Assembly (NCBI RefSeq): GCF_001311845.1
Contig: NZ_BBCC01000025.1
Coordinates: 1-52,367, forward strand
Origin: Desulfosarcina cetonica JCM 12296
GTDB lineage: Bacteria > Desulfobacterota > Desulfobacteria > Desulfobacterales > Desulfosarcinaceae
DNA: 52,367 nt
Reading direction: 5' to 3'
In this document: one piece after another, positions 20,765 to 51,639 of the stretch
Layout of the letters: the number at the start of each line of letters is the position of its first letter
How positions within the stretch are numbered: position 1 is the stretch's first letter
The notes under the pieces: generated by a model
Database searches by the model: none
Told to the model about the DNA's origin: nothing
Seen by the model: only the letters and a program-made list of their open reading frames with translations
Translations under genes and position numbers: made by a program

Positions 20765-21532
20765 GTGGGTACAGGATCGCCGTTGAGCAAGCATCGCCAC
20801 CAAATCGAAAAACTGGCTAAATTCCTCACCTACATCCTCGGCCGCCGGCCGGATGAATTCGGTCTGGTTCCCGATGAGCGGGGTTTCGTAAAAATCAAGG
20901 ACCTGTTGAAGGCACTGGACGAAGAGGCCGGCTGGCGTCACGTGCGGCAGAATCATATCCGTGAAGTGGTCTACACATTGGCACCGCCACCGTTGGAAAT
21001 AGATCGGAATCTGATCCGGGCCATTGATCGGTCCCAGCTGGTAAAAGCGGAAATGGCCGGCGATATTCCCAAGCTATTGTACCATGCGCTTCGCCGCAGG
21101 GCGTATCCCGTGGCGTTGGAGAAAGGGGCGTGGCCGAGGGACACCATGTCGTATGTCGTACTGGCCCGAGACCGCCAAATGGCCCAACGCCTCGGCCGAA
21201 GAATGGACAGCGATCCGATCATCCTGACGGTGAATACGGCGCAGTTGAGACAAAAAGGAAGCCAACTGCTTTGTTTCGGCGACCACTTGATGTTGGCCGA
21301 CGCACTTCCGGTAGGAAGTTTCAGCGGCCCGCCCCTGCCGGAGCCACGGGAAGCGCCCCGAACGACCGAGGCCGCCCCGATCCCGACGTTGCCCAAGACA
21401 CCGGGCAGCTACTTTCCCGATCTCGCCTCGGCCGCAACCCCGGCCAAAAGAAACATCAAGCGTTTGGAAAAACAAAAGAACGCCTGGAAGCGGGATCGCA
21501 AGCGCCAAAGCAGATCCAATGGAAAGCGTTGA
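20765..21532 (+). CDS. KptA/Tpt1-like RNA 2'-phosphotransferase, divergent
   Basis: 255 residues from GTG 20765; TTG 20783 is an alternative. The N-terminal winged-helix half is typical of KptA/Tpt1: KLAKFLTYILGRRPDEFGL, then DERGFVKIKDLLKAL. The C-terminal ADP-ribosyltransferase-like half keeps LLYHALRRRAYPVALEKG and YVVLARDRQMAQRLGRRM, but the usual YHGT is YHAL and the usual HLS is VLA, so the expected catalytic histidine is lost. The last ~50 residues are a basic tail (RNIKRLEKQKNAWKRDRKRQ). The family removes 2'-phosphates from RNA using NAD; this copy may have changed activity. Confidence 0.7.
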   Translation: MGTGSPLSKHRHQIEKLAKFLTYILGRRPDEFGLVPDERGFVKIKDLLKALDEEAGWRHVRQNHIREVVYTLAPPPLEIDRNLIRAIDRSQLVKAEMAGDIPKLLYHALRRRAYPVALEKGAWPRDTMSYVVLARDRQMAQRLGRRMDSDPIILTVNTAQLRQKGSQLLCFGDHLMLADALPVGSFSGPPLPEPREAPRTTEAAPIPTLPKTPGSYFPDLASAATPAKRNIKRLEKQKNAWKRDRKRQSRSNGKR

Positions 21533-21635
21533 CCAAGATCGTGAGCGCCCCTCTTTTTGGATTAAGTATAAAAAACACATTGACAACTTGCCTTCAGACT
21601 GTTAGGTAGCGCTTTTGTTTCACGGGCTTGAATGA

Positions 21636-21712
21636 GGGCCGTTAGCTCAACTAGGCAGAGCACCTGACTCTTAATCAGTAGGTTATTGGTTCGATTCCAA
21701 TACGGCCCACCA
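21636..21712 (+). tRNA. tRNA-Lys (anticodon CTT), likely ICE attachment gene
   Basis: 77-nt cloverleaf starting GGGCCGTTAGCTCAACTAGG. The loop CTCTTAA gives anticodon CTT, GGTTCGATTCC is the T-arm, and CCA is encoded. The mobile element begins right after it, and tRNA 3' ends are the usual target of tyrosine integrases. The matching direct repeat is not seen inside the window. Confidence 0.95.
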
Positions 21713-21722
21713 AAATACACTA

Positions 21723-21758
21723 AGCGAAATCGGTTAGTTATACCGGTTTCGCTTTTTT
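21723..21758 (+). terminator. rho-independent terminator after tRNA-Lys(CTT)
   Basis: AGCGAAATCGG pairs with the ACCGGTTTCGCT arm (G-U tolerant), followed by a run of T. Confidence 0.8.
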
Positions 21759-21788
21759 GTTTTTAGGGGGTTTCTATATAGAAAATGA

Positions 21789-21965
21789 CAAGGAAATGAC
21801 AAGCTGGGCGACCTTGTGATCGAACAGATAGATATTCTATCTACCATTTCAAGGTTCTTTGATGGAATTAAAGCCGAATGTCCGGGCCAATACGATGACA
21901 TGCCAGCCATTGCAAATGGTTTTCCTAAAAATGGTTGGCCCGAACCAAAAAGTTTCAGTGAGTAG
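21789..21965 (+). pseudogene. short open remnant between tRNA-Lys and the initiator gene
   Basis: An open frame of 58 codons with no ATG (GTG possible at 21816), coding a polar tail that includes FFDGIKAECPGQYDDMPAIA and ends in SFSE. It looks like the C-terminal fragment of a larger protein, perhaps a gene truncated when the element inserted. Not recognised; no ribosome site. Confidence 0.3.
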
Positions 21966-22057
21966 GTGCGAGATGCGCCTTCCATCGGCAAAATACACGC
22001 AGATAAAACCATCATTGATTTTGCTCAGGCGTTAATGTCCGTGAGGAGGGCATGTCT

Positions 22058-23473
22058 ATGAACGAAAATCACGCCCAAATCAATCCTGTTTGTCATCAGA
22101 TGTTGAACTGCCGGTTGACCGGGAACATCACGCCAATCAGCTGGTTCCGCAACATATTGACTGGATCGGGTAAGCCCGATGTGGTCGCTATCATCCTTTT
22201 ATCCGATATCGTCTATTGGTACACACCGGTAATGACCCGGGACGAACACACCGGCGATGTGATCGGGATCCAGCAAAAATTCCAGGCCGACAAGCTCCAG
22301 AAAACCTACCAGGAATATGCCGACATTTTCGGTTTCTCCAAAAACCAGATTAAAAACGCCATCGACAATCTGGTCAGCCAGAATCTGATCACCCGCGAGT
22401 TTCGCCATATCAAAACGGGAAGCGGCCTTGCCATCACGAACGTGATGTATATCGAGCCGAACATCGAAAATATCGTCAAAATTTCCTATAAATCCAGATC
22501 CCCCCAAAAAGCAGGGGGATATCCCCCTAAAAAGTTGGGGGATATCCCACCAAAAAGTTTGGGGATATCCCCCAAAAAATGGGGGACCTCCCCCCAAAAA
22601 GTTGGGGGTCATCCCCCAAAAAATGGGGGGACGTATACAGAAACCACTACAGAGATTACTACAGAAACCACAACAACAACCACCGAAGCGGCGGCTGTCG
22701 ATCTTAAAAATCGTTTTCCAAAATCCATCCGCTCCCGCATCCCCAGGATTTACCAGGATCACAAGGACGTGTTGGATAGCATCGACACGTATCTAAAAAC
22801 TCACGGCAAGCCATATGTCACTGCTGAGCTCGATTATGCCATCCACAATTCGACCAAGGATGGCGGATTTCCCGCATTCCTGAAGCGATCGCTGGAAAGT
22901 GGGTGGGGCACCGAGGATCTGAAGGTTCGGCAGGCAGCCCAAAACGAGCAGCGTATTTTGGAGCGCCGGCAGAAAGAAAGCGATCTTGAAGCGCTACGCG
23001 CCGAACAAGAGCTCCTGGCTGACATCGAAAAGTGGGATCGGCAGATCGATCAGAAAGTTCAAGAAACCCTCGAGTGTATCTCCCCAACGGAGCTGAACCG
23101 CATCAAAACAGAGGCCTGGGAACAGGCCGAAAAGAAAACACCCTGCCTCAAAAGCCAGAAAAGCCAAATGTTGGCAGCGGCAAAGGAAAAGCTGTCCACC
23201 CTTTCTGATCCCGAACGAAAGACCCTCTTTGAGGTCGCCAAAGCAGCCGTGCGTGCCTCGATCGGCAACCTGTTGGGAGATAATCATCCCGGATTCCACA
23301 GGGCGGTGGATAACCAGGTGCTCAAGGAAATCCAGGAAAGGTATCCCCTTCATACGCCGCTGGCAGACCTCTGGAACAAGCGGGTCAAGACCGAAGCCGA
23401 TCGGATTTTGAAAGTCATGGTCATTCGAAATTACGGGCTTTTGAAAAGCCAAAGCACCGGGGAGTCACCATGA
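22058..23473 (+). CDS. winged-helix replication initiator-like protein
   Basis: Start set at ATG 22058: the GAGGAGG at 22043-22049 is too close to the ATG at 22052 but ideal for this one. The N-terminal ~140 residues resemble plasmid/phage initiator winged-helix domains (IILLSDIVYWYTPV; QKTYQEYADIFGFSKNQIKNAIDNLVSQNLI is a clear HTH). Residues ~148-190 are a Pro/Lys/Gly repeat encoded by an iteron-like DNA array, followed by a Thr/Glu-rich linker. The C-terminal part (~210-470) is charged and helical with a coiled-coil-like stretch (ERRQKESDLEALRAEQELL). This layout parallels lambda O, whose gene also contains the origin. First gene of the element; it overlaps the next small gene by 4 bases. 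Confidence 0.6.
   Translation: MNENHAQINPVCHQMLNCRLTGNITPISWFRNILTGSGKPDVVAIILLSDIVYWYTPVMTRDEHTGDVIGIQQKFQADKLQKTYQEYADIFGFSKNQIKNAIDNLVSQNLITREFRHIKTGSGLAITNVMYIEPNIENIVKISYKSRSPQKAGGYPPKKLGDIPPKSLGISPKKWGTSPQKVGGHPPKNGGTYTETTTEITTETTTTTTEAAAVDLKNRFPKSIRSRIPRIYQDHKDVLDSIDTYLKTHGKPYVTAELDYAIHNSTKDGGFPAFLKRSLESGWGTEDLKVRQAAQNEQRILERRQKESDLEALRAEQELLADIEKWDRQIDQKVQETLECISPTELNRIKTEAWEQAEKKTPCLKSQKSQMLAAAKEKLSTLSDPERKTLFEVAKAAVRASIGNLLGDNHPGFHRAVDNQVLKEIQERYPLHTPLADLWNKRVKTEADRILKVMVIRNYGLLKSQSTGESP
22500..22630 (+). repeat. six iteron-like 22-23 bp repeats inside the initiator gene
   Basis: Consensus ATCCCCCAAAAAGTTGGGGG. The A-runs start at 22506, 22529, 22552, 22574, 22596 and 22618, a period of 22-23 bp. 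Each unit is itself an imperfect inverted repeat (C5 / G5 around A5). Immediately downstream (22638-22685) is an ACA/ACC-rich, strand-biased segment coding Thr repeats, which could serve as an unwinding region. Period and position suggest an origin of replication. Confidence 0.7.
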
Positions 23474-23646
23474 AACACATCCTTTACGCAATCATTGCTA
23501 TTGCCGTGTTGGTCGGTTGCGCCAAACAGCCGGTCACCACCTACAGGGACGCCACAATAAATGTCGCCGAGCCGAGGATTTTTCATGGCAGCGATATCAT
23601 CGATTGCAAAATCATCCATCAACAACACCACCAAAGGGAGGACTAA
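23470..23646 (+). CDS. small lipoprotein
   Basis: 58 residues. MKHILYAIIAIAVLVGCAKQ is a lipoprotein signal with lipobox LVGC, and the short remainder is polar. It overlaps the initiator gene's stop by 4 bases and is followed by traA 4 bp later. Small lipoproteins at the head of tra operons are common, but this one has no recognised family. Confidence 0.6.
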   Translation: MKHILYAIIAIAVLVGCAKQPVTTYRDATINVAEPRIFHGSDIIDCKIIHQQHHQRED

Positions 23647-23650
23647 AGCC

Positions 23651-23985
23651 ATGCAAGCCGTCCGAAAATTAACTATCGCATTGATTGTTTTAACCGTCGG
23701 CTTTTGTCCGGCGGTGGCATCCGCCTTCCAGGCGCGGCCTCCGGAAGTTTTGCGTACAGCGTCTATGACCTTTTCATGAACGAGATCCTGACGGGCGCCA
23801 TTGGTTTCGTCATTGCCGCCGGCCTGGTGCTCTACGCCATATTCTGGGCGGTCCGCAGCAACGTCTTCGGCACCATCGTCTGTGCCATCTGTGCCGGGTT
23901 GATCATCTTCATCGAGGATGTCGTGATCTCGCTTGGAATAACCATCGCGGAGGTTGGAAACATCGTCTCGAAATCTCTGTTTTAA
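23651..23985 (+). pseudogene. traA: TraA-like conjugative pilin, one frameshift
   Basis: The first frame gives a signal peptide (MQAVRKLTIALIVLTVGF, cleavage around AVASA). The second frame carries the mature pilin: GAASGSFAYSVYDLF, then two hydrophobic helices (LTGAIGFVIAAGLVLYAIFW and GTIVCAICAGLIIFIEDVV). A missing G in the CAGG at 23729-23732 explains the change of frame. The length of about 111 residues, the two-helix layout and the position just before traL fit the F-pilin subunit. It would be processed and assembled into the mating pilus. Confidence 0.7.
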
Positions 23986-24011
23986 CAACCTTGGTTCGTG
24001 GAGGTGGCCCC

Positions 24012-24284
24012 ATGCGATACCAGATACCCCGCTACTTGAACGAGCAGGTCCGGTTTGTCGGGCTGCAAAGCGATGAGTTCATCATGTGCCTTCTGTCCGT
24101 CTACTTTTGCACGATCTTTCGATTTCAGTGGATGGTTCTGATGCTCAACCTGGCAATGATTTTTTTCATCATCTGGCTCAATCGCAATTTCCCCAGGGGT
24201 TTTATTCGGCATCTTGCCTATTTCAGTGGATTTTACAGGTTCGTCAATTATCCGGCTTTTTTTGCCAACAGGTTTATCGAATGA
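24012..24284 (+). CDS. traL: TraL pilus assembly membrane protein
   Basis: Start at ATG 24012, behind GGAGGTGG; the longer frame from 23991 is not needed. About 90 residues: a conserved amphipathic N-terminus (YQIPRYLNEQVRFVGLQSDE) and two adjacent membrane helices, then RFVNYPAFFANRFIE. This matches F-type TraL, an inner-membrane T4SS subunit comparable to VirB3. It overlaps traE by four bases (ATGA). Confidence 0.85.
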   Translation: MRYQIPRYLNEQVRFVGLQSDEFIMCLLSVYFCTIFRFQWMVLMLNLAMIFFIIWLNRNFPRGFIRHLAYFSGFYRFVNYPAFFANRFIE

Positions 24285-38142: not shown

Positions 38143-38409
38143 ATGATCCCTTGTCTCCTTGGCCTGCTCGGTTGCGGAGGGTCGTCGGATTCTTCTGTAT
38201 CAAATAACTTCTCATCGTCCGAGGACAGTGGTCCATTGGCAGGCGTGTGGATCGGATCAGCAAATGGCGTCACGCACACGATTACGACCCACGGTCAGGA
38301 GAATACCTGTTTGATGGGATGGAATACAAGCGATGAATACTTTACCAGGACATTTATAAAAATACGGGATCGTCGAGTCCATGGAGCAATCATCAATAAA
38401 CCTGAATGA
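38143..38409 (+). CDS. small lipoprotein
   Basis: 88 residues. The start gives MIPCLLGLLGCGGSSDSS, a short lipoprotein signal with lipobox LLGC followed by a Ser-rich linker, then GVWIGSANGVTHTITTHGQ, which is beta-strand-like. The function is unknown; a surface lipoprotein after traG could act in entry exclusion (speculative). It overlaps the next gene by 29 bases. Confidence 0.5.
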   Translation: MIPCLLGLLGCGGSSDSSVSNNFSSSEDSGPLAGVWIGSANGVTHTITTHGQENTCLMGWNTSDEYFTRTFIKIRDRRVHGAIINKPE

Positions 38410-39094
38410 AATCACGGAAGGCGCTGCCTACCAGGCCATCGAAACGGCCATCATCCAGTATTTTCAGGTACGGGATTGTATTGTCAATTTCGACACCCAA
38501 AGCGCTTGCATTCTCTTCGATCCTGTTGTTCATCGAAGATGGATTGCACGGTTCAATGGGCATATTGATTCCTGCGATTCAAAGGACATCCCGATTTCGG
38601 TACCGCTGAGGCGTCTGCCACCCCAAATCAAACAGATGACCCGGCCCATATTAGAAAATCTTATGGGGGGACAGGAGTCGCTGGAGTCATATCTTAAATG
38701 GAAACCCCTCGAACGTAAAATCGTACCCGGAACCATCACCGAAGTACACCATACTCACTACAAAATCAGTTTGAAGGGGGAAACAGGTAGATTGGATACC
38801 AGGGATGCAATCAAACGCGAAAACTACTCGCTTGGGAAAACCCATTTATTTCATGTAAAGCGGGTTCGGATGGATGGTGAAAATGTCCGGATTCATCTAT
38901 CGCGCAGGTCCAAAAGTCTTCCAGAGTTCGTTCTATCAAGCAAATTTCCCAAGTACCGGTTCAAATGCTATCGGCGCCTGCCGGGCATCAAATCCTGGAT
39001 TCGAACAACTGCACCTCGATTCAGGTGGAGCTTGTTTTTTTCCAAGGAGATTCGCCAATCCCTGGCAGGAGAATACCTTCAATTTTATTCTTGA
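38381..39094 (+). CDS. NusA-like S1/KH RNA-binding protein
   Basis: 237 residues. It follows the NusA order: an N-terminal domain with YQAIETAIIQYFQ and VNFDTQSACILF; then IKQMTRPILENLM; an S1 domain with GTITEVHHTHYKISLKGETG, IKRENYSLGKTHLF and VRIHLSRRSKSLPEFVLSSK; then a shortened KH-like part (FPKYRFKCYRRLPGIKSWIR) and EIRQSLAGEYLQFYS. NusA binds RNA polymerase and nascent RNA to control pausing, termination and antitermination. It lacks the second full KH and acidic repeats, so it is an element-encoded mini-NusA, possibly for reading through the long tra operon (inference). Confidence 0.6.
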   Translation: MEQSSINLNEITEGAAYQAIETAIIQYFQVRDCIVNFDTQSACILFDPVVHRRWIARFNGHIDSCDSKDIPISVPLRRLPPQIKQMTRPILENLMGGQESLESYLKWKPLERKIVPGTITEVHHTHYKISLKGETGRLDTRDAIKRENYSLGKTHLFHVKRVRMDGENVRIHLSRRSKSLPEFVLSSKFPKYRFKCYRRLPGIKSWIRTTAPRFRWSLFFSKEIRQSLAGEYLQFYS

Positions 39095-42489: not shown

Positions 42490-43248
42490 ATGAAAAAGAT
42501 CGGTATCTGCAATAATAAGGGCGGTGTGGGCAAAACCACCATCACCCTATGTCTGGCCGGAGCCCTGGCCGAGATGAATCTGAATGTGCTCCTGGTGGAC
42601 ATGGACCAGCAAGGATCTTTAAGTTCCTCCTTTTTGCCCGATATTCACAACCTGCCGTTGGTGGTCACGGATGTGATCCGGGATGATGGCGTATCCATCG
42701 AAGCGGCAATTCATCGGACCCAATATGCCAACATCAAGATCCTCCCTTCCAATTTGAGTCTGGCCAAACTGGAGAGCGAACTTCAATCCGAGCGGGACGC
42801 TCATTATTATCTTGCCGACAGGCTTGATGAGATCAATGGTCAATACGATGTGGTCATTATTGATTCTCCTCCCAATTTAGGACTGGCCACCTGGTCGGTA
42901 TTGACCGCTGTTCAAGATCTGATCATCCCTTTGGAGGCCCAGGATTACAGTGTCAAGGGCACGGGGTATGTCCACGGGTTGATCGACAAGGTAAAAAAGC
43001 GGGCCAATCCCCGGCTTGAGATTTTGGGTTACCTGATCAATAGATACGATGGCCGCCGACGTATCGAACAGGATTTCAAGGCCATGATCCAGAACCACCT
43101 GGGCAGCCGGGTGTTTGATCAAGTGCTGAAAGACGCCGTTGTGTATGTGGAAGCCGTCACCTTGGGCACACCTGTTACCATGCTTTATCCCAAAAGCGAG
43201 CATGCCGAGGAGTTTCGCAAGCTTGGCAGGAGGGTCATGTATGGCTAA
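42490..43248 (+). CDS. parA: ParA partition ATPase
   Basis: 252 residues. Deviant Walker A KGGVGKTTITLCLAGAL, Walker A' VLLVDMDQQGSLSSSF, and VVIIDSPPNLGLAT. It lacks an N-terminal HTH, so it is the chromosomal/Soj-like (type Ib or short Ia) form. It positions the element's DNA with ParB. parB starts eight bases before its end. Confidence 0.93.
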   Translation: MKKIGICNNKGGVGKTTITLCLAGALAEMNLNVLLVDMDQQGSLSSSFLPDIHNLPLVVTDVIRDDGVSIEAAIHRTQYANIKILPSNLSLAKLESELQSERDAHYYLADRLDEINGQYDVVIIDSPPNLGLATWSVLTAVQDLIIPLEAQDYSVKGTGYVHGLIDKVKKRANPRLEILGYLINRYDGRRRIEQDFKAMIQNHLGSRVFDQVLKDAVVYVEAVTLGTPVTMLYPKSEHAEEFRKLGRRVMYG

Positions 43249-44173
43249 GGATTTCTCTCAAGATGCCCGGGACCGATCTCTTTTCCTGGTCCCTTCGACA
43301 TTGGATACAGCTGCAAATAGGGGCGATCGTTTAGATACCCGCCCGCTCCGGGAGGCAAGGTGGATTGAAATCCAGCGTATCCAGCCGGACCCGAACCAAC
43401 CCAGAAAAACCTTTGTTCAGGAAACCCTTGAGTCCCTTGCCCGATCCATCCGCGAGATCGGCGGCATCATCGATCCGATAACGGTCCAATTTTCTGAAAA
43501 TGAAGATGGTTTCCTGATCATCAGTGGAGAGCGGCGTTATCTGGCCGCCAAGATCGCCGGTCTCGACACGCTTCCCTGTATCATTAAACAACCCGATGAC
43601 AAAACCCGCTTTCTCATGCAGTTTATTGCCAACATCCAGCGGGAAGATATCCCGCCCCTGGAAGAGGCCGCAGCCATTCGGCGATTGGTTCAGACCTACG
43701 GGTTCACACAACATGAAATCGCAAAACTGATAAATAAATCAAAAAGCTATGTCAGTCAGGTCCTGGGCCTGGAGCGACTCTCCGATGAAGCCAAAAAGAA
43801 GGTTCAGACGTCTGAACTTTCCAAAGAGGTTCAGATCCAGGCATCCCGGGAGACGGAGCCTGGAAAGCAGATTGAAATTCTGAAGATGGCATCCGATGAC
43901 AAAAAAACCGTTCGGGATATCCGCAATCAAAGCAGACAGGTCGGAACCCAAAATTCGGATCACAATGAGACTTTCAGCCAGTGGAGTTGGCGATCAAAGA
44001 AGGGACGGTTCACGGTATCGGTACGGTTTATGGAGAAGCATCCATTCGAAAACAAGGCTAACATGGTTCAGGCGGCTCTAAATGAAGCGATCGGCCAGAT
44101 TTATAGTGAGCGCATAGAAACCGGCGGCGAGTTGAAGGAGCATGAGGCCCGCACCAATGAGAATGAAAAATGA
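43241..44173 (+). CDS. parB: ParB centromere-binding protein
   Basis: 310 residues from ATG 43241. The N-terminal ParB/Srx domain has WIEIQRIQPDPNQPRKTF, GGIIDPITVQ and ISGERRYLAAKIAG (the GERRxxA CTP-binding motif). The central HTH is YGFTQHEIAKLINKSKSYVS, and the C-terminal region is charged. It binds a parS site, which I could not locate by eye. It forms a partition pair with parA. Confidence 0.93.
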   Translation: MAKDFSQDARDRSLFLVPSTLDTAANRGDRLDTRPLREARWIEIQRIQPDPNQPRKTFVQETLESLARSIREIGGIIDPITVQFSENEDGFLIISGERRYLAAKIAGLDTLPCIIKQPDDKTRFLMQFIANIQREDIPPLEEAAAIRRLVQTYGFTQHEIAKLINKSKSYVSQVLGLERLSDEAKKKVQTSELSKEVQIQASRETEPGKQIEILKMASDDKKTVRDIRNQSRQVGTQNSDHNETFSQWSWRSKKGRFTVSVRFMEKHPFENKANMVQAALNEAIGQIYSERIETGGELKEHEARTNENEK

Positions 44174-44293
44174 GTCGGTGAGCTGGTCGATGGATAGGCC
44201 CAGTTTCTCCAGAGTTGACACCAAATGAAATCTTTGCCAACTTGGACATATCCTGCCAATCATTTTCACCATCAATAAAACGGAGTTCCTCCT

Positions 44294-44578
44294 GTGGCAC
44301 TAACGAAAAACGATATCGTTGAGCGTATCTATAATGACCCCGGGTTGCCGAAAAATAAGGCCATTCAAGCTGTTGAATCTTTGATCGAACTGATAAAGTC
44401 CGCTTTGGAATCAGGTGATGATGTGTTGGTTTCAGGTTTTGGTAAATTCTGTGTCAATAAAAAACATCCACGGAAAGGCAGAAACCCGGCTACAGGTGAA
44501 GATTTAATTTTACCGGCGCGGAGTGTAGTGACGTTCAAGTGCTCAGGAAAATTGCGCGAGAAGGTGAATGGTGGATAA
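44294..44578 (+). CDS. IHF/HU family DNA-bending protein
   Basis: 94 residues from GTG 44294. The IHF-alpha/HU pattern is MALTKNDIVERIYNDPGLPK, then VSGFGKFCVNKKHPRKGRNP (the DNA-intercalating arm) and ILPARSVVTFKCSGKLREKV. Likely an IHF-alpha-like nucleoid protein encoded on the element, useful for integrase/excision complexes or for origin and oriT architecture. Confidence 0.9.
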   Translation: MALTKNDIVERIYNDPGLPKNKAIQAVESLIELIKSALESGDDVLVSGFGKFCVNKKHPRKGRNPATGEDLILPARSVVTFKCSGKLREKVNGG

Positions 44579-44656
44579 TGATACTCACTTCTACCAAACT
44601 CCCTGATGGCTTAACAATTACTCAATAATCTAAATGTGTTTGCTCGAGTGTGTGGT

Positions 44657-45583
44657 TCAAACCCCTATTAAATCATTCGGCAAAAACCGACTCCACCAGC
44701 CTTTCTGTGGCTGCCAAGCGTCCACGAACGTAATAATCTCGTCAGGACCGGCAAACGACACATGCAACACAAAGGTTTCATATTCGTTCGCCCACTCCCT
44801 GTCATGGTGCAAATTTTCAAGCATGGCGGTAAGGCGCTCGGCCGGGTCCTGAGGCGCCTCCCCTCCTCCCCGGCTGGCGTCATTTTCCGCGATTTGCCGA
44901 ACCAGCCTTACGAATTCCGGCGCGTTTCCGATATGGCTTTCAAGAGCCGCCAGGTCGTACAGGTGACGGATGACGGCTGGATCGTCATTTTCCGCCCCTC
45001 GTTTGCGGGTACATACGCGCCAAGCCAAGGCGCTTAATTTGTCAGCGGCTGTTTCTATTGGGTCAACGCAGGGGAAACTCAGAATTTCGGGAGGCATTTT
45101 TTCAAACTGTGCGATCATGGACCGAATAGGTCGTCTTATGGGTTGCAACGCCGGCGCAAAGAAAGACATTTCTATACGTATATAAGGCCTCAGGCCCGGA
45201 CCTGTTTGGAAATGACTGTGATAGGCCAAGTCGGCCGAGAAAAAGCGGCTTTCATTACCTTTTTTAACAGCGATCAAATTAAAATCGGCAGCAGCCAGGG
45301 CTGATAAAACCTGCTCGCGGTAACCGCTACGCTGTTTTCGCTGTATAGCGTTACTCGCGTCGGCGGGCATGGAGACCTTGAAGTCGATATCTTCTGAAAA
45401 GCGCTTGATATGCCCCCAGCCCTTCGATAACGACGTACCGCCTGAAAAAACGGGTATCGCCGCAGCATCATCGAGGGACGAAATCACACGTATGGCTTGA
45501 ACGACATGCCAATCCTTCTCGACCAGGCGTTCGTCGCTCAAAAACGCGCCAGCAACCCGCTCAATAAGTTTCCGCTCAAGCAC
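44657..45583 (-). CDS. AbiEii-type nucleotidyltransferase toxin
   Basis: 308 residues. The nucleotidyltransferase motif is FSGGTSLSKGWGHIKRFSED followed by IDFKV, which carries the catalytic acids. Further family segments are CVDPIETAADKLSALAWRV and RHLYDLAALE. AbiEii toxins transfer nucleotides, e.g. to tRNA, and cause abortive infection or stasis. It overlaps the antitoxin gene by 8 bases. It is on the opposite strand to the rest of the ICE, so it is cargo. Confidence 0.9.
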   Translation of the reverse strand: MLERKLIERVAGAFLSDERLVEKDWHVVQAIRVISSLDDAAAIPVFSGGTSLSKGWGHIKRFSEDIDFKVSMPADASNAIQRKQRSGYREQVLSALAAADFNLIAVKKGNESRFFSADLAYHSHFQTGPGLRPYIRIEMSFFAPALQPIRRPIRSMIAQFEKMPPEILSFPCVDPIETAADKLSALAWRVCTRKRGAENDDPAVIRHLYDLAALESHIGNAPEFVRLVRQIAENDASRGGGEAPQDPAERLTAMLENLHHDREWANEYETFVLHVSFAGPDEIITFVDAWQPQKGWWSRFLPNDLIGV

Positions 45584-45981
45584 GTTCGAAACTCATAAAA
45601 ACACCTTTATAACCGATTTTGCGGCGTACCCTCTTCCGGGTGGCGATCACACGGCCTGCCGGGACTTGGGTTGTTTTCCCGGCATTATAGGCTTTTTCAA
45701 AGCGCGTTGGGGCGCTTTTGACTCCCAACCGGCTAAGCGCCTCGGCCGTCAATGAATAGAGCCCCTTGACCGGCGTCGGTGTACCGTCGAAGGGCGATGG
45801 CACGGCGCGCGTGTAAAGCCCTTGGCCTATTTTCATAAGCTTACCCTTCTTCACAAGTTCCCGAAGCACGACCCACCTGGTCATAGCCGCCCAGGTCTTT
45901 AAAATCGGCACGCAGAAAGACGTCGCCGCGCTTGCGGTCGATACGTTTCATCAAGCGTGTTTCCAAACTTTCGGTTCCCAT
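45576..45981 (-). pseudogene. AbiEi/DUF6088-type antitoxin, one frameshift
   Basis: Start at ATG 45981 behind GAGGTG. The first frame gives METRLMKR-type LETRLMKRIDRKRGDVFLRA and DFKDLGGYDQVGR. The second gives LRELVKKGKLMKIGQGLYTR, SLTAEALSRLGVK and a basic end (RKRVRRKIGYKGVF). A net +1/-2 shift near 45870-45880 separates them. This is the wHTH antitoxin-repressor of AbiE systems. If the break is real, the toxin would be unopposed and also likely unexpressed; sequence error is simpler. Confidence 0.72.
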
Positions 45982-46275
45982 CTTGCACCTCGCGCTCAAT
46001 GTCAATTTACGACACTTATGCGATGTTTTCAATAGCTAATCAATTGGTTAAGAGAAAAAACACGATTTTCCCCTTAATATTCGCCCAAGGATAAAGCTCA
46101 TCCCATCTTGCGACGATCTGCAACATGCTTTTTATCCCTTTTCGGCTCTTTCGTGTGTCAAAGGAAAGATGCTTCTGAAGTACTGCTTAAAAATGCAAAT
46201 AGCATCTTCCGCGCACAGTTGAAATATTGAATAAATCTATTATGGTTAAATATGCCGCAAAGAAGTAATTTTTAC
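45982..46275. other. gene-free AT-rich spacer upstream of the AbiE pair
   Basis: AT-rich DNA between the divergent AbiE genes and the ssb promoter. It should contain the AbiE promoter, but no clear -35/-10 pair was found. Confidence 0.4.
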
Positions 46276-46304
46276 TTGACGATCCGTGTTTCTTTCTTTA
46301 AAAT
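46276..46304 (+). promoter_or_regulatory. sigma-70 promoter of the ssb-primase-radC block
   Basis: TTGACG (46276-46281) and TAAAAT (46299-46304) with 17-bp spacing. The predicted start near 46311 implies a leader of about 360 nt before ssb. Confidence 0.65.
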
Positions 46305-46322
46305 TTACATAATTATTCGCTC

Positions 46323-46341
46323 AATGAAATCTCATTTCATT
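46323..46341 (+). promoter_or_regulatory. perfect palindrome just downstream of the promoter, putative operator
   Basis: AATGAAAT-CTC-ATTTCATT, perfect 8-bp arms, about +13 to +31 from the predicted start. The position suits a repressor; no binding protein is assigned. A second inverted repeat, GATCCATT (46404-46411) / AATGGATC (46421-46428), lies downstream. Confidence 0.55.
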
Positions 46342-46594
46342 GTTCCTCCGCCGCTGAGCGGGCCTCGGGATGACAGGATTCTTCCTGAATAATCCTTATT
46401 TCAGATCCATTCTTTCCTTTAATGGATCGGTGTCAATCAATCGACCGTAATTCCCAAAACGGCATAAGCCAAACCTTGGGTAGATGATTTTCTGCAACGG
46501 CCAAGCCAAACAGCAGAATTGCCATTCGGCGGTCGTGTCATATCCACACTCCACACATTACTATCAAAAGCCTCCAATAAACATCCATTAACGA

Positions 46595-46646
46595 GGGACC
46601 AAAGCACTTGTGCGCTTTTTGGGCGCTACAGGTGTTTTTGGTGCCC
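46595..46646 (+). promoter_or_regulatory. structured leader upstream of ssb
   Basis: An outer stem (46595-46607 with 46632-46646, ACCAAA/TTTGGT core, small bulges) encloses a GCGC/GCGC hairpin, just before the AAAGGAG of ssb. The architecture resembles the leaders of DUF932 and radC, but pairing to the ribosome site is weaker here. Confidence 0.4.
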
Positions 46647-46667
46647 GTCAAACGAAAGGAGCGTCTT

Positions 46668-47372
46668 ATGAACAAGGCAATCATCATTGGAAGGTTGGGA
46701 AAAGAGGCCACGTTTTTTAACGGTGGCGATCAAACCGCCTGTCGATTTCAATTGGCGGTAAAAGAGACATGGAAAAGCAAAAACAACGAACCGCAGGAAC
46801 GAACCGAGTGGGTAAATGTGGCTGCCCTTGGTTCCGTTGCCGAACAGATGAAACGTGTTGCCAAAGGCACGCTCGTGTTTGTTCAGGGATCGGCCAACAC
46901 AGGCAGCTACACGAAGAATGATGAAACCCGCTACTATTTTGAAATCCGGGCCAGGCTGCTTCGAATTTTGCCTGAAACAGGAAGACAATCACTTAAGGAT
47001 CTGGACCAGAATGAGATCGCCTTGGTCGGTCGTCTTGGACAGGATCCGGTTACTCCCAAGGAGGGAATTACCCACTTCTCTTTGGCATGCAACGAATATT
47101 TCAAAGGTAATGACACTACCCAGTGGATCAGCGTTGCCACATTCAACGGTTTGTCGGACAACGCGGCCAGAATATTAAGCAAAGGCCGGTTGGTCTTCGT
47201 GGAAGGGAAAGTACGAACGAGAAAATACGATAAGGATGGGCAAACCCGCCATGCCACAGGTGTTGTCGCACACCGGTGGCGCGCGCTGGACGCCAGGCCC
47301 AAAAGGCAAGAATCAGATGAGTATCACGAATCCGCACCCTATGATCATGTGGATGACGATATCCCGTTTTAA
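46668..47372 (+). CDS. ssb: single-stranded DNA-binding protein with two tandem OB folds
   Basis: Start at ATG 46668 behind AAAGGAG. 234 residues: OB-fold 1 (residues ~1-110, MNKAIIIGRLGKEATFFNGG, ERTEWVNVAALGSVAEQM, LVFVQGSANTGSY) and OB-fold 2 (~118-210, NEIALVGRLGQDPVTPKEG, TTQWISVATFNGLSDNAARI, LVFVEGKVRTRKY), then an acidic linker and the canonical C-terminal tip DDDIPF that recruits partner proteins. Most bacterial SSBs have one OB fold and form tetramers; two per chain, as in Deinococcus, implies a dimer. It protects single-stranded DNA during transfer or replication. Confidence 0.9.
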   Translation: MNKAIIIGRLGKEATFFNGGDQTACRFQLAVKETWKSKNNEPQERTEWVNVAALGSVAEQMKRVAKGTLVFVQGSANTGSYTKNDETRYYFEIRARLLRILPETGRQSLKDLDQNEIALVGRLGQDPVTPKEGITHFSLACNEYFKGNDTTQWISVATFNGLSDNAARILSKGRLVFVEGKVRTRKYDKDGQTRHATGVVAHRWRALDARPKRQESDEYHESAPYDHVDDDIPF

Positions 47373-47377
47373 TCCGT

Positions 47378-47419
47378 GCCCCTGGATCTCGAATGGAACA
47401 GCCCCTTGGATCCAGGGGC
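47378..47419 (+). promoter_or_regulatory. alternative hairpins between ssb and the primase gene
   Basis: GCCCCTGGATC (47378-47388) can pair with GATCCAGGGGC (47409-47419). A competing local hairpin uses GCCCCTTGGATCCAGGGGC (47401-47419). No U tract follows. Possible attenuator or RNA-processing site. Confidence 0.45.
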
Positions 47420-47441
47420 CTTATAACCTGTGAGGCTATCG

Positions 47442-48221
47442 ATGGAGCGTATTTTAAAAAAACTCGAGCGATATTTTGGCACATGGAAAATCGGCATCCT
47501 AAATCCGGACAGGGGGCTATGGTCGCTTTCGCCCTCGGTGAATAAGCTGGGATATCTGAAAGCAATGAATGCCAGCGGCTATCACATCTTCATGAAACCC
47601 GTGGATGAAAGCCGCTTCCTGCTTTTGGATGATATTCCGGAAAACAAGCTGCCATACCAAAAGGAATTGAAACGATTTAAGCCCGGACGTCTGGTGGTGG
47701 AAACCAGCCCCGGCAATTTTCAGGTATGGATCAAATCCGCTCGGAACATAGACAACCCGGAAAAAAGATACTGGATCAGGTTTTTCCGCGCAGATTCTGC
47801 CTGCGATCCGAATTTGCGTTGGGGCCGCTGTCCGGGATTCCGCAATTGTAAACCCAAATATGGTAAAAATGGACAATTTCCCCTTTCCCGGCTTGTTTGG
47901 GTAGACTGGGAAAATGTGGCCCAAGTACCAAAGGTAGCCCTACCGAAAAAAACAGTTGACCGACAGCCAATCAAGGTAAGAGGAATAACGCAGCGTCTAT
48001 CGGGCAATCCCATTTTGCGTACTGATTATGATCGCGGGGATGAATCCGCCACTGATTTTGCCTATGCGCTCGCATTGCTTCGTCGAGGAACGGATCCGGA
48101 AGTCGTTGCCGATAGGCTGTTGCAAGAAAGAAAAGATTGGACCCACCACAAAGGCCAACGGCGCCAGGCCGCTTACCTTCAGCGCACGATCAACCGCGCC
48201 GTCAAGATCATCAATCAATAA
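47442..48221 (+). CDS. RepB-like DNA primase
   Basis: Start taken at ATG 47442 (MERILKKLERYFG). 259 residues. It matches the RepB-type primase of plasmids and phages: HIFMKPVDESRFLLLDDIPE with a catalytic Asp pair, VVETSPGNFQVWIKSA, and the late motif GRCPGFRNCKPKYGKNGQFP. The C-terminal ~70 residues form a helical tail (DFAYALALLRRGTDPEVVADRL split). It would prime complementary-strand synthesis of the element's single-stranded DNA. It lies in one block with ssb, DUF932 and radC. Confidence 0.75.
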   Translation: MERILKKLERYFGTWKIGILNPDRGLWSLSPSVNKLGYLKAMNASGYHIFMKPVDESRFLLLDDIPENKLPYQKELKRFKPGRLVVETSPGNFQVWIKSARNIDNPEKRYWIRFFRADSACDPNLRWGRCPGFRNCKPKYGKNGQFPLSRLVWVDWENVAQVPKVALPKKTVDRQPIKVRGITQRLSGNPILRTDYDRGDESATDFAYALALLRRGTDPEVVADRLLQERKDWTHHKGQRRQAAYLQRTINRAVKIINQ

Positions 48222-48246
48222 AGAAGATGTCTAATTCTTAAATCCA

Positions 48247-48333
48247 ACCCCAAATCCGGGGTACCGCAATGGTCCCCCGATACGGTGGTGTTCTCCCTAT
48301 GGTGGGAACCATTGCGGTTTTACCCAAAGGGAG
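48247..48333 (+). promoter_or_regulatory. pseudoknot-type leader of the DUF932 gene
   Basis: Hairpin ACCCC/GGGGT (48247-48262), then a perfect 10-bp stem CCGCAATGGT (48264-48273) / ACCATTGCGG (48308-48317) extended by CCC/GGG. Its loop contains TCTCCC (48292-48297), complementary to GGGAGA (48329-48334) at the ribosome binding site. The same plan is found before radC. Confidence 0.7.
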
Positions 48334-48340
48334 ACAGACA

Positions 48341-49141
48341 ATGAAATCACAAAGTATTCCCCTGACCAATGACCAAATCGTCGAGTTAGCTCCGGCTGCG
48401 GGAGCGATAAACCCGCACGAAACGGTTTCCGACCGATATAGCTTTGTGCCAACCATCGAGGCTGTTGATTTGTTGAGGTCGGTCGGTTGGCAACCCGTGC
48501 ATGTGAAGCAATCCGGAACAAGGAAAAATGATCGCAGCGGCTATCAAAAACACATCATCCGATTCATGCAGGGAGCCCTTTCAATCGATCAAGAACGCGT
48601 CGATCTGGTGATGACCAACTCTCATGATCGTGGGTGTGCGTTTCAGCTTTGTGCCTCGATCTGGCGCAAAATATGCGGAAATGGATTGATGGTATCCTCG
48701 AAACTGTTCAATTTTTCACACAGACATGTCAATTTTGACACAACGAGTTTCTTGAATTCTGCCTACCAGATTGCCGAAGGTGCCGGAGACATCGCTGTAC
48801 AAGCCAATGATTTAAAGGCGATAGACCTCTCTCCGAATGAAAAAGACGTGTTCGCCATGGCTGCGCACAAACTGGTCTATGACGATATCGAAAAGGCACC
48901 GATTTTGCCATCACAGTTACTTGAAGAGCGGCGTTACGACGACCAAGGCAATGATCTATGGACGACATTCAATGTGGTCCAGGAGAACATCATGAAGGGG
49001 GGCATATATGGAAGTAAGCAAAATGCGAATGGCCATATTCGTCGAGTCAAAACCCACCCTGTGAAATCTATTGATCGGGATGTAAAGCTCAACAAGGCAC
49101 TGTGGGTGTTGACCGAAGAGATGGCCAGACTAAAAAGCTGA
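48341..49141 (+). CDS. DUF932 family protein
   Basis: Start at ATG 48341 behind AAAGGGAGACAG. 266 residues. It has the DUF932/DUF945-type layout: SDRYSFVPTIEAVDLLRSVGW near residue 40 (split motif), HIIRFMQGA, then VMTNSHDRGCAFQLCASIWRK followed by CGNGLMVSS. Such proteins are common on plasmids and phages; function unknown, sometimes linked to anti-restriction genes. The C-terminus is basic. It sits between primase and radC. Confidence 0.75.
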   Translation: MKSQSIPLTNDQIVELAPAAGAINPHETVSDRYSFVPTIEAVDLLRSVGWQPVHVKQSGTRKNDRSGYQKHIIRFMQGALSIDQERVDLVMTNSHDRGCAFQLCASIWRKICGNGLMVSSKLFNFSHRHVNFDTTSFLNSAYQIAEGAGDIAVQANDLKAIDLSPNEKDVFAMAAHKLVYDDIEKAPILPSQLLEERRYDDQGNDLWTTFNVVQENIMKGGIYGSKQNANGHIRRVKTHPVKSIDRDVKLNKALWVLTEEMARLKS

Positions 49142-49202
49142 ATAAGTAGACAGACAACGCTGTACGGTTCTTCAAAATATTCTTTAAATCAAAGATGAAA
49201 TC

Positions 49203-49285
49203 CCCCGAATCGGGGAACCGTAAAGGTTTCCCGGTGGGGATGCCCTCCCTATTCATGGGAGCCTTTGCGGCTAACAATAGGGAGG
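49203..49285 (+). promoter_or_regulatory. pseudoknot-type leader of radC
   Basis: Hairpin CCCCG/CGGGG (49203-49215), then stem CCGTAAAGG (49218-49226) / CCTTTGCGG (49262-49270, one G-U). The loop segment CCTCCCTATT (49244-49253) is perfectly complementary to AATAGGGAGG (49276-49285), which contains the radC ribosome binding site. This forms an H-type pseudoknot that can hide the site. Confidence 0.75.
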
Positions 49286-49291
49286 ATGAAA

Positions 49292-49840
49292 GTGAACAAA
49301 AAAGAATATCGTTTTTATGCCTACAAGCTGCATATGGTCAAAGAACAAGAAATCCGCTTCTTGAGTGACCAGGCAATCCACAATAGCTACTCCGGCTCCA
49401 AATTAATCAAAAAAGTGATCCGCCAAATCGGTCAGACTGATCGGGAAAACTTCGTTGTAGTGATGCTTAATACGAAGCTAATACCCATCGGCACAAACCT
49501 GGTATCCACTGGAAGCCTTACCCGATGTATCGTGCAGCCCAGGGAGATCATTAAAGCGGCATTGAACATGCCTTGCAAGGCCTTGATCCTCGGACACAAT
49601 CATCCATCAGGAGATCCTTCGCCTTCCATGGAAGACAAGCTGATCACCCTCATGATAATGGCGTCTGCGCATCTGTTCGATGTTGATATTCTGGATCACA
49701 TTATCGTGGACATGGATTCTGATGCCTACCTGTCTTTCGCGGACGAGAAAATCATTGAAGATACGAAACGAAAAGTGTGTTCCGTATTAGATCAAATTTC
49801 AAGGATGCAAACAAAAATAGGAAGTAAGGAGACATCATGA
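49292..49840 (+). CDS. radC: RadC family JAB-domain protein
   Basis: Start set at GTG 49292, six bases after GGAGG; the upstream ATG 49286 is too close to it. 182 residues. The JAB/MPN zinc motif is ALILGHNHPSGDPSPSMED followed by DHIIVD. The N-terminal HhH domain of full-length RadC is missing, as in most mobile-element copies. Its role is uncertain; such copies travel with anti-restriction and replication genes. Its stop overlaps the next start (ATGA). Confidence 0.88.
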   Translation: MNKKEYRFYAYKLHMVKEQEIRFLSDQAIHNSYSGSKLIKKVIRQIGQTDRENFVVVMLNTKLIPIGTNLVSTGSLTRCIVQPREIIKAALNMPCKALILGHNHPSGDPSPSMEDKLITLMIMASAHLFDVDILDHIIVDMDSDAYLSFADEKIIEDTKRKVCSVLDQISRMQTKIGSKETS

Positions 49841-50190
49841 TCAACAATACAGGCAAAGATTTTGAAAATCCTTACGCACATGTGGTGGAATGGATTAATC
49901 GGCATGAAGGTACGGGTTCGGCAAATGGGCTGGCGAAACTGATTCTCTCACTATGGTCTGAAGATGCGGCGTTTAGCTTCCGTGAATGTATATCATCATT
50001 CGACGATACGCGTCTTGCATGGGCTGAAGAAATGACCACACACTTCATTCGTTTTCGCTTCGACCGATTTTTGGAAGATGCCGCAAAACAAGTTGCTTTG
50101 ATATGCCCTCATCTCATTGAAAAAGGACTTGCCGGATGCCATGCCAAATGCGATTGGGAACGCTCTAAGACCACAGTCAAGAAACATTGA
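49837..50190 (+). CDS. hypothetical protein downstream of radC
   Basis: 117 residues, soluble and helical, with several His and Cys residues near the end (ICPHLIEKGLAGCHAKC). It is translationally coupled to radC through the ATGA overlap. It resembles the small conserved proteins that follow radC on mobile elements, but I do not recognise the family. Confidence 0.6.
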   Translation: MINNTGKDFENPYAHVVEWINRHEGTGSANGLAKLILSLWSEDAAFSFRECISSFDDTRLAWAEEMTTHFIRFRFDRFLEDAAKQVALICPHLIEKGLAGCHAKCDWERSKTTVKKH

Positions 50191-50203
50191 CCGATCAAAC
50201 TAC

Positions 50204-50248
50204 CCGACCGTCTGTTTTTGAGGCTTGCCGAAAAAAACAGACGGTCGG
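50204..50248 (+). promoter_or_regulatory. perfect 16-bp hairpin
   Basis: CCGACCGTCTGTTTTT (50204-50219) pairs exactly with 50233-50248, loop 13 nt. U-rich and A-rich arms close the loop and no T tract follows, so it could be a terminator of the radC operon or a protein-binding or attachment-region structure. Confidence 0.6.
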
Positions 50249-50494
50249 CAAACCTGATTAATCCATGAATATGCCAACAAGTCTTACTACATGAAATAAT
50301 AAGATTATCTTTACACCTTCGATCGATGTTTTCCCATCTACTCACGCCCTGAAAAAACAAATTAACGACTGACGACCATTTTTTTCGGCACACGACAAGG
50401 GCAAAAGGGAAAAGATCACAAATACCAAATTCCCATTCTTTGTAACCGCTGATCAATACATCAGCGAATATATAAAGCGATTATCCTTACCCTG

Positions 50495-50533
50495 TACCCA
50501 TTTCCGGGGCGTCGCCTACGGCGATGCGGGGTA
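50495..50533 (+). promoter_or_regulatory. compact stem-loop in the integrase leader
   Basis: TACCC/GGGTA (50495-50499 / 50529-50533) encloses CGTCGCC-TAC-GGCGATG (50510-50526). A second small hairpin, CGGTG-AGC-CCACCG, follows near 50562-50577. Together these form a structured region ahead of the integrase start. Confidence 0.45.
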
Positions 50534-50613
50534 AAATCGCATTAACCAAAACTTTTATTAATTCGGTGAGCCCACCGTTTTAATAGATCGCTAAAAGATT
50601 ACAAAAAAGGGAG

Positions 50614-51576
50614 GTGATCAAGCTGAGCAACTCAACGAGGACAGACACCCTGGTAATGCAAGCGATACGAGGTATAAAACAAACCAAATCGGGATCCGCC
50701 AAAACCAGACACAATCATATAAAAGAGGCACGCAGATTTGTAATGACCATTCGAGAGTTGGGTTACGGTGTCAAAAGATGGAAAAATGTAACCAATATTC
50801 ATATTCAAAAAGCGGTCGACAAATGGAAGGAAGAGGGTTTGCAGGCAGCAACGGTTAAAGAGTATTTATCCGGTGTTCGAACCGTTTGCAGGATTTATGA
50901 TAACGATCAAATCAAACCGGACAATACACAATTCGGCATCCCCAATCGAGTGTTTGTGGATAATCGTGACAAGTCGATACCAGAGGAAGTGTTCCAAAAA
51001 GCGGTGACAGAATTGAAGCAAAGCAGCAACAGTGATGACAAAAGAGTGGCCGCCCAACTGCAATTAGAACGCTATCTGGGATTAAGAGTGGAAGAAGCAT
51101 GTAAATTTAATGCCCACCAAGCAGTCCTGTCAGATGGAAGGGTGTTCATTCAGCATGGAACCAAGGGCGGAAGGGAGCGGATAATAAACGAACTAACCGA
51201 AAATGGAAAAGCAGCGATTGAATATGCAAAAGCGATATCAGGTATCAACAACTTAATTCCGAATGATCACAGCGAAAAACAGTGGATTCAAAAGTATTAT
51301 CGAATAACAAGAGCGAAAAGTATTTCAAAGAAAGAATGCGGAGCATCAAGTCATGGATGTCGACATTCTTATACGCAGGATCGCTATGAAACAATCACCG
51401 GATTTAAGGCACCATGTAAGTTTGAATCAAAAAAAGAATTCAGAAAAAACGCGATAACAATAGCCGGCAAAAAATGGGTAAAGCTAAACCAGGACGCAAG
51501 GCAAATAATAAAATCTGAGTTAGGTCACGGCCCGGACCGTGATGATGTGGTAAGTCAATATTTGGGCGCAACATAA
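50614..51576 (+). CDS. int: tyrosine recombinase (ICE integrase)
   Basis: 320 residues as read from GTG 50614. That codon overlaps GGGAGGTGATC, so the true start may lie a few codons later. An N-terminal SAM-like core-binding domain (TVKEYLSGVRTVCRIYDNDQ) is followed by a catalytic domain with LGLRVEEACKF (first Arg), HGTKGGRERII (Lys), SSHGCRHSYTQDRYE (His-x-x-Arg) and GHGPDRDDVVSQYLG, where the usual final Tyr lies in SQYLG. It belongs to the Integrase_1-like group seen in ICEs. It probably recombines at the tRNA-Lys(CTT) 3' end (inference). Confidence 0.88.
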   Translation: MIKLSNSTRTDTLVMQAIRGIKQTKSGSAKTRHNHIKEARRFVMTIRELGYGVKRWKNVTNIHIQKAVDKWKEEGLQAATVKEYLSGVRTVCRIYDNDQIKPDNTQFGIPNRVFVDNRDKSIPEEVFQKAVTELKQSSNSDDKRVAAQLQLERYLGLRVEEACKFNAHQAVLSDGRVFIQHGTKGGRERIINELTENGKAAIEYAKAISGINNLIPNDHSEKQWIQKYYRITRAKSISKKECGASSHGCRHSYTQDRYETITGFKAPCKFESKKEFRKNAITIAGKKWVKLNQDARQIIKSELGHGPDRDDVVSQYLGAT

Positions 51577-51601
51577 AAATGAAAAAGCTTTGACGCAGTT
51601 T

Positions 51602-51639
51602 AAAAGCCTTCGCCTTAAAAGCGAGGGCTTTTTCTTTTT
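51602..51639 (+). terminator. rho-independent terminator of the integrase gene
   Basis: AAAAGCCTTCGC (51602-51613) pairs with GCGAGGGCTTTT (51621-51632), one G-U, followed by a T-rich tract. Confidence 0.85.

Follow-up and report, generated by a model that had tools for sequence, protein, structure and literature searches.

A probable lambda-type replication origin inside the initiator gene of an F-type integrative and conjugative element of Desulfosarcina cetonica

Several phages carry an origin of replication within a replication gene, among them the lactococcal phages Tuc2009 and TP901-1. Phage lambda has four annotated iterons inside the O gene, which start at positions 39034, 39054, 39078 and 39101 of its record. 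The starts are 20, 24 and 23 bp apart and fall into the codon phases 0, 2, 2 and 1. When O was recoded with its protein sequence preserved, the iterons had repeat structure beyond that given by the protein (p 0.003, best lag 20). For the lambdoid phages, the origin is described as lying in the middle of the O gene, two iterons and the AT-rich region being enough for unwinding, and O binds the AT region in its single-stranded form (PMC7466680, in excerpt). The oriL of phage SPP1 lies within the initiator gene 38 and consists of direct repeats bound by the initiator and an AT-rich unwinding element (PMC6316719, in excerpt). The iterons of plasmids are described as mostly direct repeats (PMC5043065, in excerpt).

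The window analysed here is a stretch of 52,367 nucleotides from Desulfosarcina cetonica JCM 12296 (contig NZ_BBCC01000025.1, forward strand). An integrative and conjugative element (ICE) has its left end at an initiator gene beside tRNA-Lys. We propose, with a probability of about 0.78, that a repeat array and an A-rich tract in this gene make up a replication origin of the lambda type, embedded in the sequence that codes for its own initiator. Judged from the sequence, they are probably the oriV of an F-type ICE that carries ParAB, SSB and a RepB-like primase. Close homologues from complete genomes were found in G001 and Desulfosarcina widdelii, which together with the window make up the Desulfosarcina trio. 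The features of the left end are:

21636 to 21712, plus strand: tRNA-Lys (CTT), probably the attachment site at the left end of the ICE (tRNA search)
22052 to 23473, plus strand: initiator gene of 473 aa, which holds the predicted origin (ORF list and PHROG profile matches)
22115 to 22489, plus strand: predicted winged-helix DNA-binding domain, about residues 22-146 (AlphaFold2 model, weak profile matches)
22498 to 22520, plus strand: array unit 1 (sequence, Tandem Repeats Finder)
22521 to 22543, plus strand: array unit 2 (sequence, Tandem Repeats Finder)
22544 to 22566, plus strand: array unit 3 (sequence, Tandem Repeats Finder)
22567 to 22587, plus strand: array unit 4, 2 bases shorter than in both relatives (sequence)
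22588 to 22610, plus strand: array unit 5 (sequence, Tandem Repeats Finder)
22611 to 22632, plus strand: array unit 6, 1 base shorter than in both relatives (sequence)
22636 to 22684, plus strand: TACAGAGATTAC-type tract with a 12-bp period, predicted strand-opening element (Tandem Repeats Finder, codon counts, duplex weakness)
22682 to 23473, plus strand: helical C-terminal region of the initiator (AlphaFold2 model)

The 473-aa product was compared with the PHROG profiles and matched PHROG 270 (replication initiation protein, E 1.3e-12), PHROG 186 (DnaD-like, E 5.5e-9), PHROG 391 (O-like, E 3.4e-7, via the N-terminal part) and PHROG 678 (E 0.0062). The NCBIfam search gave no match, and in the Pfam search every match was below its family cut-off. 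AlphaFold2 modelled residues 2-147 as a winged helix (pLDDT 88.9, pTM 0.83), and HTH and GntR-like profiles matched this domain weakly. When the model was searched against the PDB with Foldseek, nothing was found at E<=0.001, generic winged helices being at the top of the list. The N-terminal domain is common to the window protein and the phage initiators of PHROG 270, 391 and 186. The C-terminal region was modelled with a pLDDT of 81.9 but a pTM of 0.45 (two sequences in the alignment), and none of the PHROG initiators matched it. About 66 residues near its start are 33% identical, over 66 aa, to the tail of L008, a Rep3 plasmid-type initiator with Rep3_N and Rep3_C. Profile searches found neither of these two winged-helix domains in the window protein. 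This common stretch suggests an exchange of modules between phage-type and plasmid-type initiators.

The six-unit array occupies positions 22498-22632 of the ORF and sits between the predicted winged helix and the helical C-terminal region. The original prediction had placed it there, in the coding linker between the DNA-binding and C-terminal domains, and the ORF, the Tandem Repeats Finder result and the AlphaFold2 models bear this out. Tandem Repeats Finder reported 22498-22631 with a period of 23 bp, 6.0 copies and a score of 163, which rose to 183 for a double unit of 44 bp. The local tandem score of the linker was 52.8 at lag 23, above 200 of 200 dinucleotide shuffles. A control of the same length, taken from the sequence coding for the winged helix, scored 9.6. 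A search of the 7.09 Mb draft assembly for CCCCCNAAAAANNNGGGGGAT with at most one mismatch returned two matches only, units 1 and 2. The dyad symmetry of the array had a p of 0.015.

The A-runs of the units start at 22506, 22529, 22552, 22574, 22596 and 22618, which gives spacings of 23, 23, 22, 22 and 22 bp and the codon phases 1, 0, 2, 0, 1 and 2. In both complete-genome relatives all five spacings are 23 bp and the codon phases are 1, 0, 2, 1, 0 and 2. Of the predicted spacing of 22-23 bp, the value of 23 bp is upheld five times over in both relatives, whereas the 22-bp spacings of the window are doubtful and may be assembly errors, because many single-base gaps occur elsewhere in the window. 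Compared with both relatives, bases are missing from C and A runs where the spacing is shorter. The three long blocks aligned with G001 between 22058 and 44202 contain 14 gaps whose length is no multiple of three, and in 10 of these the window lacks a single base. Two of the gaps, at 29197 and 34170, coincide with places where a TraC-like and a TraH-like profile are divided between overlapping ORFs. To judge from the alignments, the single-base gaps of the window may be assembly errors or decay. Further single bases are missing against G001 at 27453, 39759, 40859 and 41166. The two gaps that the array of the window has against both relatives had been considered as a natural frame-shift experiment, which was dropped because of the many single-base gaps elsewhere.

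Relatives of the initiator were collected from two sources. With tblastn, 17 plasmid and 40 phage records were among the matches listed, and 15 of these 57 were fetched. A scan of viral contigs gave 234 relatives, of which the best 80 were kept; an earlier scan with the N-terminal domain of the window alone as query had confirmed no relative. With the three Desulfosarcina genes this made 98 genes. Seven genes without the domain-end motif were left out (L026, L027, L036, L037, L038, L054 and L056), and the remaining 91 were reduced to 39 representatives at <=90% winged-helix identity. The best repeat lag of the linker, sought between 10 and 40 bp, was 22 in 17 representatives, 23 in 15, 24 in 3 and another value in 4. 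It was therefore 22-24 bp in 35 of the 39; significance at about 0.01 was reached in 29 of all 39, and equal-length winged-helix controls had such a lag in 4 of 39 only. By Tandem Repeats Finder alone, 7 of the 15 phage and plasmid genes that had been fetched contained a 22-23 bp array. Dyad symmetry was seen at p<=0.05 in 16 and at p<=0.01 in 11 of 38 arrays; L080 was lost from this and the recoding test by its short pattern-defined region. The unit sequences vary from element to element. In the comparison of homologues that had been proposed, the period of 22-24 bp is kept, but the unit sequence and the linker protein both change. In the most distant plasmid homologues, such as L024-L027, the array-plus-tract layout is absent. 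A gene for a helicase, a loader-like or a DnaA-like ATPase is annotated next to or near the initiator in 9 of the 15 fetched homologues. Plasmid pBN31-16k, which carries a family member, was set aside as proof of replicon function; it is not decisive because a second replication initiation gene is annotated there. We found no description of the family-wide layout in the literature searched, and an earlier one is possible since most subscription journals were outside its scope.

In most representatives the array is followed on its 3' side by a TACAGAGATTAC-like repeat, and ACAGAGA occurs in 34 of 39 linkers. Of 73 glutamate codons in the tract 66 are GAG, where the genes themselves would predict 24.3, and at the Thr-Glu-x-Thr places the first threonine is ACA in all 59 counted. 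The tract belongs to the weakest 20% of its gene in 29 of the 33 genes included in the duplex-weakness count, and A exceeds T in 33 of 33. Neighbouring copies are 12 or 15 bp apart in 35 of 39 spacings. In L042 and L066 they are 13 or 14 bp apart, and because of this spacing one copy is read in a different frame. The tract pattern found nothing in L023, L025 and L039, and its matches in L024 and L050 are probably false. A literature search on the tract strings returned nothing related by title.

In the window, Tandem Repeats Finder reported the tract at 22636-22683 with a period of 12 bp, 4.0 copies and a score of 54. The strand bias noted in the original prediction for a tract after the array was borne out: the composition of 22632-22684 is A25 C17 G5 T6. 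The tract is also weak, only 2% of the 40-bp stretches of the gene being weaker. Over 21714-23474 the tract was the 68th weakest of 1761 stretches of 50 bp, the weakest being intergenic, near 21823. Its threonine codons are ACA or ACT in 8 of 12 cases versus 6 of 24 in the counted rest of the gene. The window tract is degenerate and obeys the GAG rule poorly, with 1 GAG and 3 GAA.

The locus resembles lambda O/ori in several respects. The iterons lie in the middle of the initiator gene at a spacing near two helical turns and in three codon phases, the units are built of a C-run, an A-run and a G-run, and an A-rich tract adjoins the last iteron. The claim that the lambda O/ori design is copied therefore holds for the layout, as given by the annotated lambda iterons and by the description of lambdoid origins (PMC7466680, in excerpt). 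The proteins differ in winged-helix subfamily and in C-terminus, but both match PHROG 391 and PHROG 678. With lambda O as query, PHROG 391 was matched by the C-terminal part and PHROG 678 by residues 1-172; the best family of lambda O, PHROG 277, was absent from the matches of the window protein. Unlike lambda, the system is carried by an F-type ICE, no lambda P homologue was recognised for the window, and the tract of the family is a 12-bp repeat where lambda has an A+T region. The window has six units and lambda four; six are also described for some lambdoid phages (PMC7466680, in excerpt). A lambda-iteron pattern with two mismatches allowed had two matches in the window, both in the array, and 1 of 100 shuffles reached two; array units 4 and 6 match the pattern with one mismatch. 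With a matrix made from the four lambda iterons, units 4 and 6 were joint second in the 52-kb window and the top match, at 49200, was outside the array. A direct likeness of the tract to the lambda A+T region was rejected, the alignment not being significant (p 0.10).

The SPP1 oriL, compared by layout, likewise has its repeats and AT-rich element inside the initiator gene, as in the window (PMC6316719, in excerpt), and differs in belonging to a lytic phage with a second origin. Among the phage initiators of PHROG 270, 391 and 186, most representatives examined have the array-plus-tract layout of the window. The Rep3 iteron plasmids share part of the C-terminal region, but the window protein is without the Rep3 domains. 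The original prediction had likened the array to plasmid iterons, for their 22-bp spacing, as well as to lambda. The units look more like the inverted-repeat iterons of lambda than like the mostly direct repeats of plasmids (PMC5043065, in excerpt), with the reservation that dyad symmetry was seen in 16 of 38 arrays only.

Across the family the array varies together with the winged helix. Array similarity was correlated with that of the winged helix when the C-terminus was controlled for (partial r 0.29, p 0.001) and with that of the recognition helix when the whole domain was controlled for (0.183, p 0.007), and no correlation with the C-terminus was observed (0.029, p 0.28). These values come from 36 representatives (L023, L024 and L025 left out, the L080 region shortened), and the p-values are generous because the representatives are related to each other. 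A tracking of this kind is compatible with any binding role, and the array may instead be a site at which the initiator acts in autoregulation or copy control, with replication elsewhere or by rolling circle at oriT. A plasmid with a family member indeed has another annotated replication initiation gene, and the ICEs SXT/R391 and ICEBs1 are described as replicating via their relaxase (PMC4489591, in excerpt). We consider this alternative unlikely. In most cases a weak and strand-biased tract of similar kind comes after the array, which makes an origin-like pair, a site in the middle of a gene is odd for an operator, and this position in the gene is the one that serves replication in lambda and SPP1 (PMC7466680, PMC6316719, both in excerpt).

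The setting of the proposed origin was analysed in the rest of the window. Homology starts at 22058 with the G001 element and at 22029 with the D. widdelii element; it covers 22058-44202 and 46022-51636 in the former and 22029-49811 in the latter, with interruptions in both. These starts, and a truncated second G001 copy beside a tRNA-Lys (CTT), speak for tRNA-Lys as the attachment site. Against it, no tRNA was found in 80 kb of sequence surrounding the intact copy of G001, and the D. widdelii stretch had a tRNA-Ser only. A search for attR as a direct repeat within the window did not find it, a 12-bp match being seen at 52174. The ICE encodes a tyrosine recombinase, recognised by profile search, and the F-type tra proteins TraE, TrbI, TraC, TraU, TraH, TraG_N, TraV, TraF and the coupling protein. 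None of the scanned ORFs of the window, which do not include those at 23561-24284, was recognised as a relaxase or a helicase loader. Three sets of genes bear on replication and partition:

42490 to 44173, plus strand: ParA and ParB in overlapping ORFs, 42490-43248 and 43139-44173 (AAA_31; ParB_N, HTH_ParB)
46608 to 47372, plus strand: SSB, two SSB stretches in one chain (SSB, E 3e-37)
47430 to 48221, plus strand: RepB-type primase, beside the double SSB (RepB_primase, E 5.7e-18)

For other ICEs, those of the pKLC102 group, replication and the possession of partition genes have been reported (PMC4489591, in excerpt). A literature search for Desulfosarcina ICEs found none. The element also encodes an IHF/HU-like DNA-binding protein (44294-44578), a possible origin-bending factor. 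An AbiEii-type nucleotidyltransferase toxin gene of a type IV toxin-antitoxin system (44657-45583) lies in the stretch 44202-46022 that does not align with G001. Among the tra genes, the protein at 38381-39094 resembles NusA over one stretch (E 1.2e-10, a match that falls well short of the family cut-off). G001 has a second, truncated copy beside a tRNA-Lys (CTT) (L006, G001:C1:1554194-1557787). There, sequence matching window positions 20789-21864 joins straight onto the last array unit (window 22611), and the DNA-binding domain, nearly the whole array and the C-terminal end are missing.

The constraint on the array was analysed by recoding and by comparison of the relatives. The tandem score of the window linker was above 300 of 300 protein-preserving recodings (mean 13.5, 99th percentile 26). 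In the family, 32 of 38 arrays had a repeat that recoding with the protein fixed cannot explain at p<=0.01; the test was above p 0.01 in L014, L024, L025, L039, L041 and L052. At fourfold-degenerate sites, G001 and D. widdelii differ in the array at 1 of 20 and in the tract at 2 of 11. The winged helix has differences at 20 of 45 such sites and the C-terminus at 40 of 83. Of the 45 amino acids encoded by the array, 7 differ. For all bases the difference is 9% in the array, 16% in the winged helix, 22% (13/60) in the tract and 27% in the C-terminus. By these percentages, the array is conserved in the Desulfosarcina trio, but the tract, taken as a whole, is not more conserved than its flanks. 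The fourfold-site comparison of the window with G001 (array 1/20, winged helix 2/51) has no power, and that with D. widdelii (array 2/17) crosses a gapped stretch. These results support that the array is constrained as DNA and not as protein. The PPKK-GG protein repeat had been regarded as a by-product of a constraint on the DNA, with DNA units conserved while the amino-acid phase drifts. Both statements were supported, the first by the recoding, fourfold-site and frame tests and the second by units that occupy all three frames. Homologues that keep the protein linker without the DNA units were not found among the 39 representatives.

The origin might also be a phage relic that worked in a donor phage and is no longer used by the ICE. 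In a sample of the phylum, the N-terminal domain profile matched 4 of 395 genomes, the window's own and three weak ones, a rarity that fits, on such profile counts, an acquisition from a phage. A relic would also agree with the many single-base gaps of the window copy and with the second copy of G001, which lacks the N-terminal domain, nearly the whole array and the C-terminal end. However, the fourfold sites of the array are conserved in the two complete relatives where the flanks differ by 44-48%, and the par, ssb and primase genes have been kept; we regard a relic as improbable. The third explanation, a plain Pro/Lys/Gly linker repeat at the protein level or a slippage product without a DNA function, is highly improbable, for although the PPKK-GG pattern is visible and homopolymer-rich units slip easily, protein-preserving recoding fails to give the DNA repeat, the units stand in different frames with nearly frozen fourfold sites, and one period is found with different unit sequences across the family; a protein-driven repeat was rejected on the recoding, frame and fourfold-site tests.

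The array and tract are best classed as an intragenic origin of the lambda type that occurs in a new setting, one instance of a design seen across the family. We infer the mechanism, from the binding of the initiator and the recruitment of the helicase to replication of the ICE after excision, as follows. The N-terminal winged helix would bind the iterons, about two helical turns apart, and the bound winged helices would build an O-some-like complex. This complex would melt the neighbouring tract, which is rich in A and poor in T, and the replicative helicase would be recruited by the C-terminal part or by a partner. Once excised, the ICE would replicate from this oriV with the aid of its own primase, SSB and ParAB. 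For the family as a whole, which would be widespread in phages, plasmids and ICEs, we tentatively suggest an origin of two parts within the initiator gene. The iteron sequence would co-evolve with the recognition helix, and a conserved, strand-specific TACAGAGATTAC element would do more than supply A+T-rich DNA: it would be read as single-stranded DNA, in steps of three bases, by the initiator or the helicase loader. Such a reading would have left its mark in the 12- and 15-bp steps and in the codon choice imposed on ACA before GAG.

If the lambda-type origin is true, the sequence of the initiator gene would directly give the origin of the many phages, plasmids and ICEs with this domain, and the specificity of initiators for their iterons would be decodable from natural co-variation. 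An ICE of sulfate reducers would then have a theta-type origin dedicated to it, along with par, ssb and primase genes, unlike SXT/R391 and ICEBs1, for which replication by relaxase and oriT is described (PMC4489591, in excerpt).
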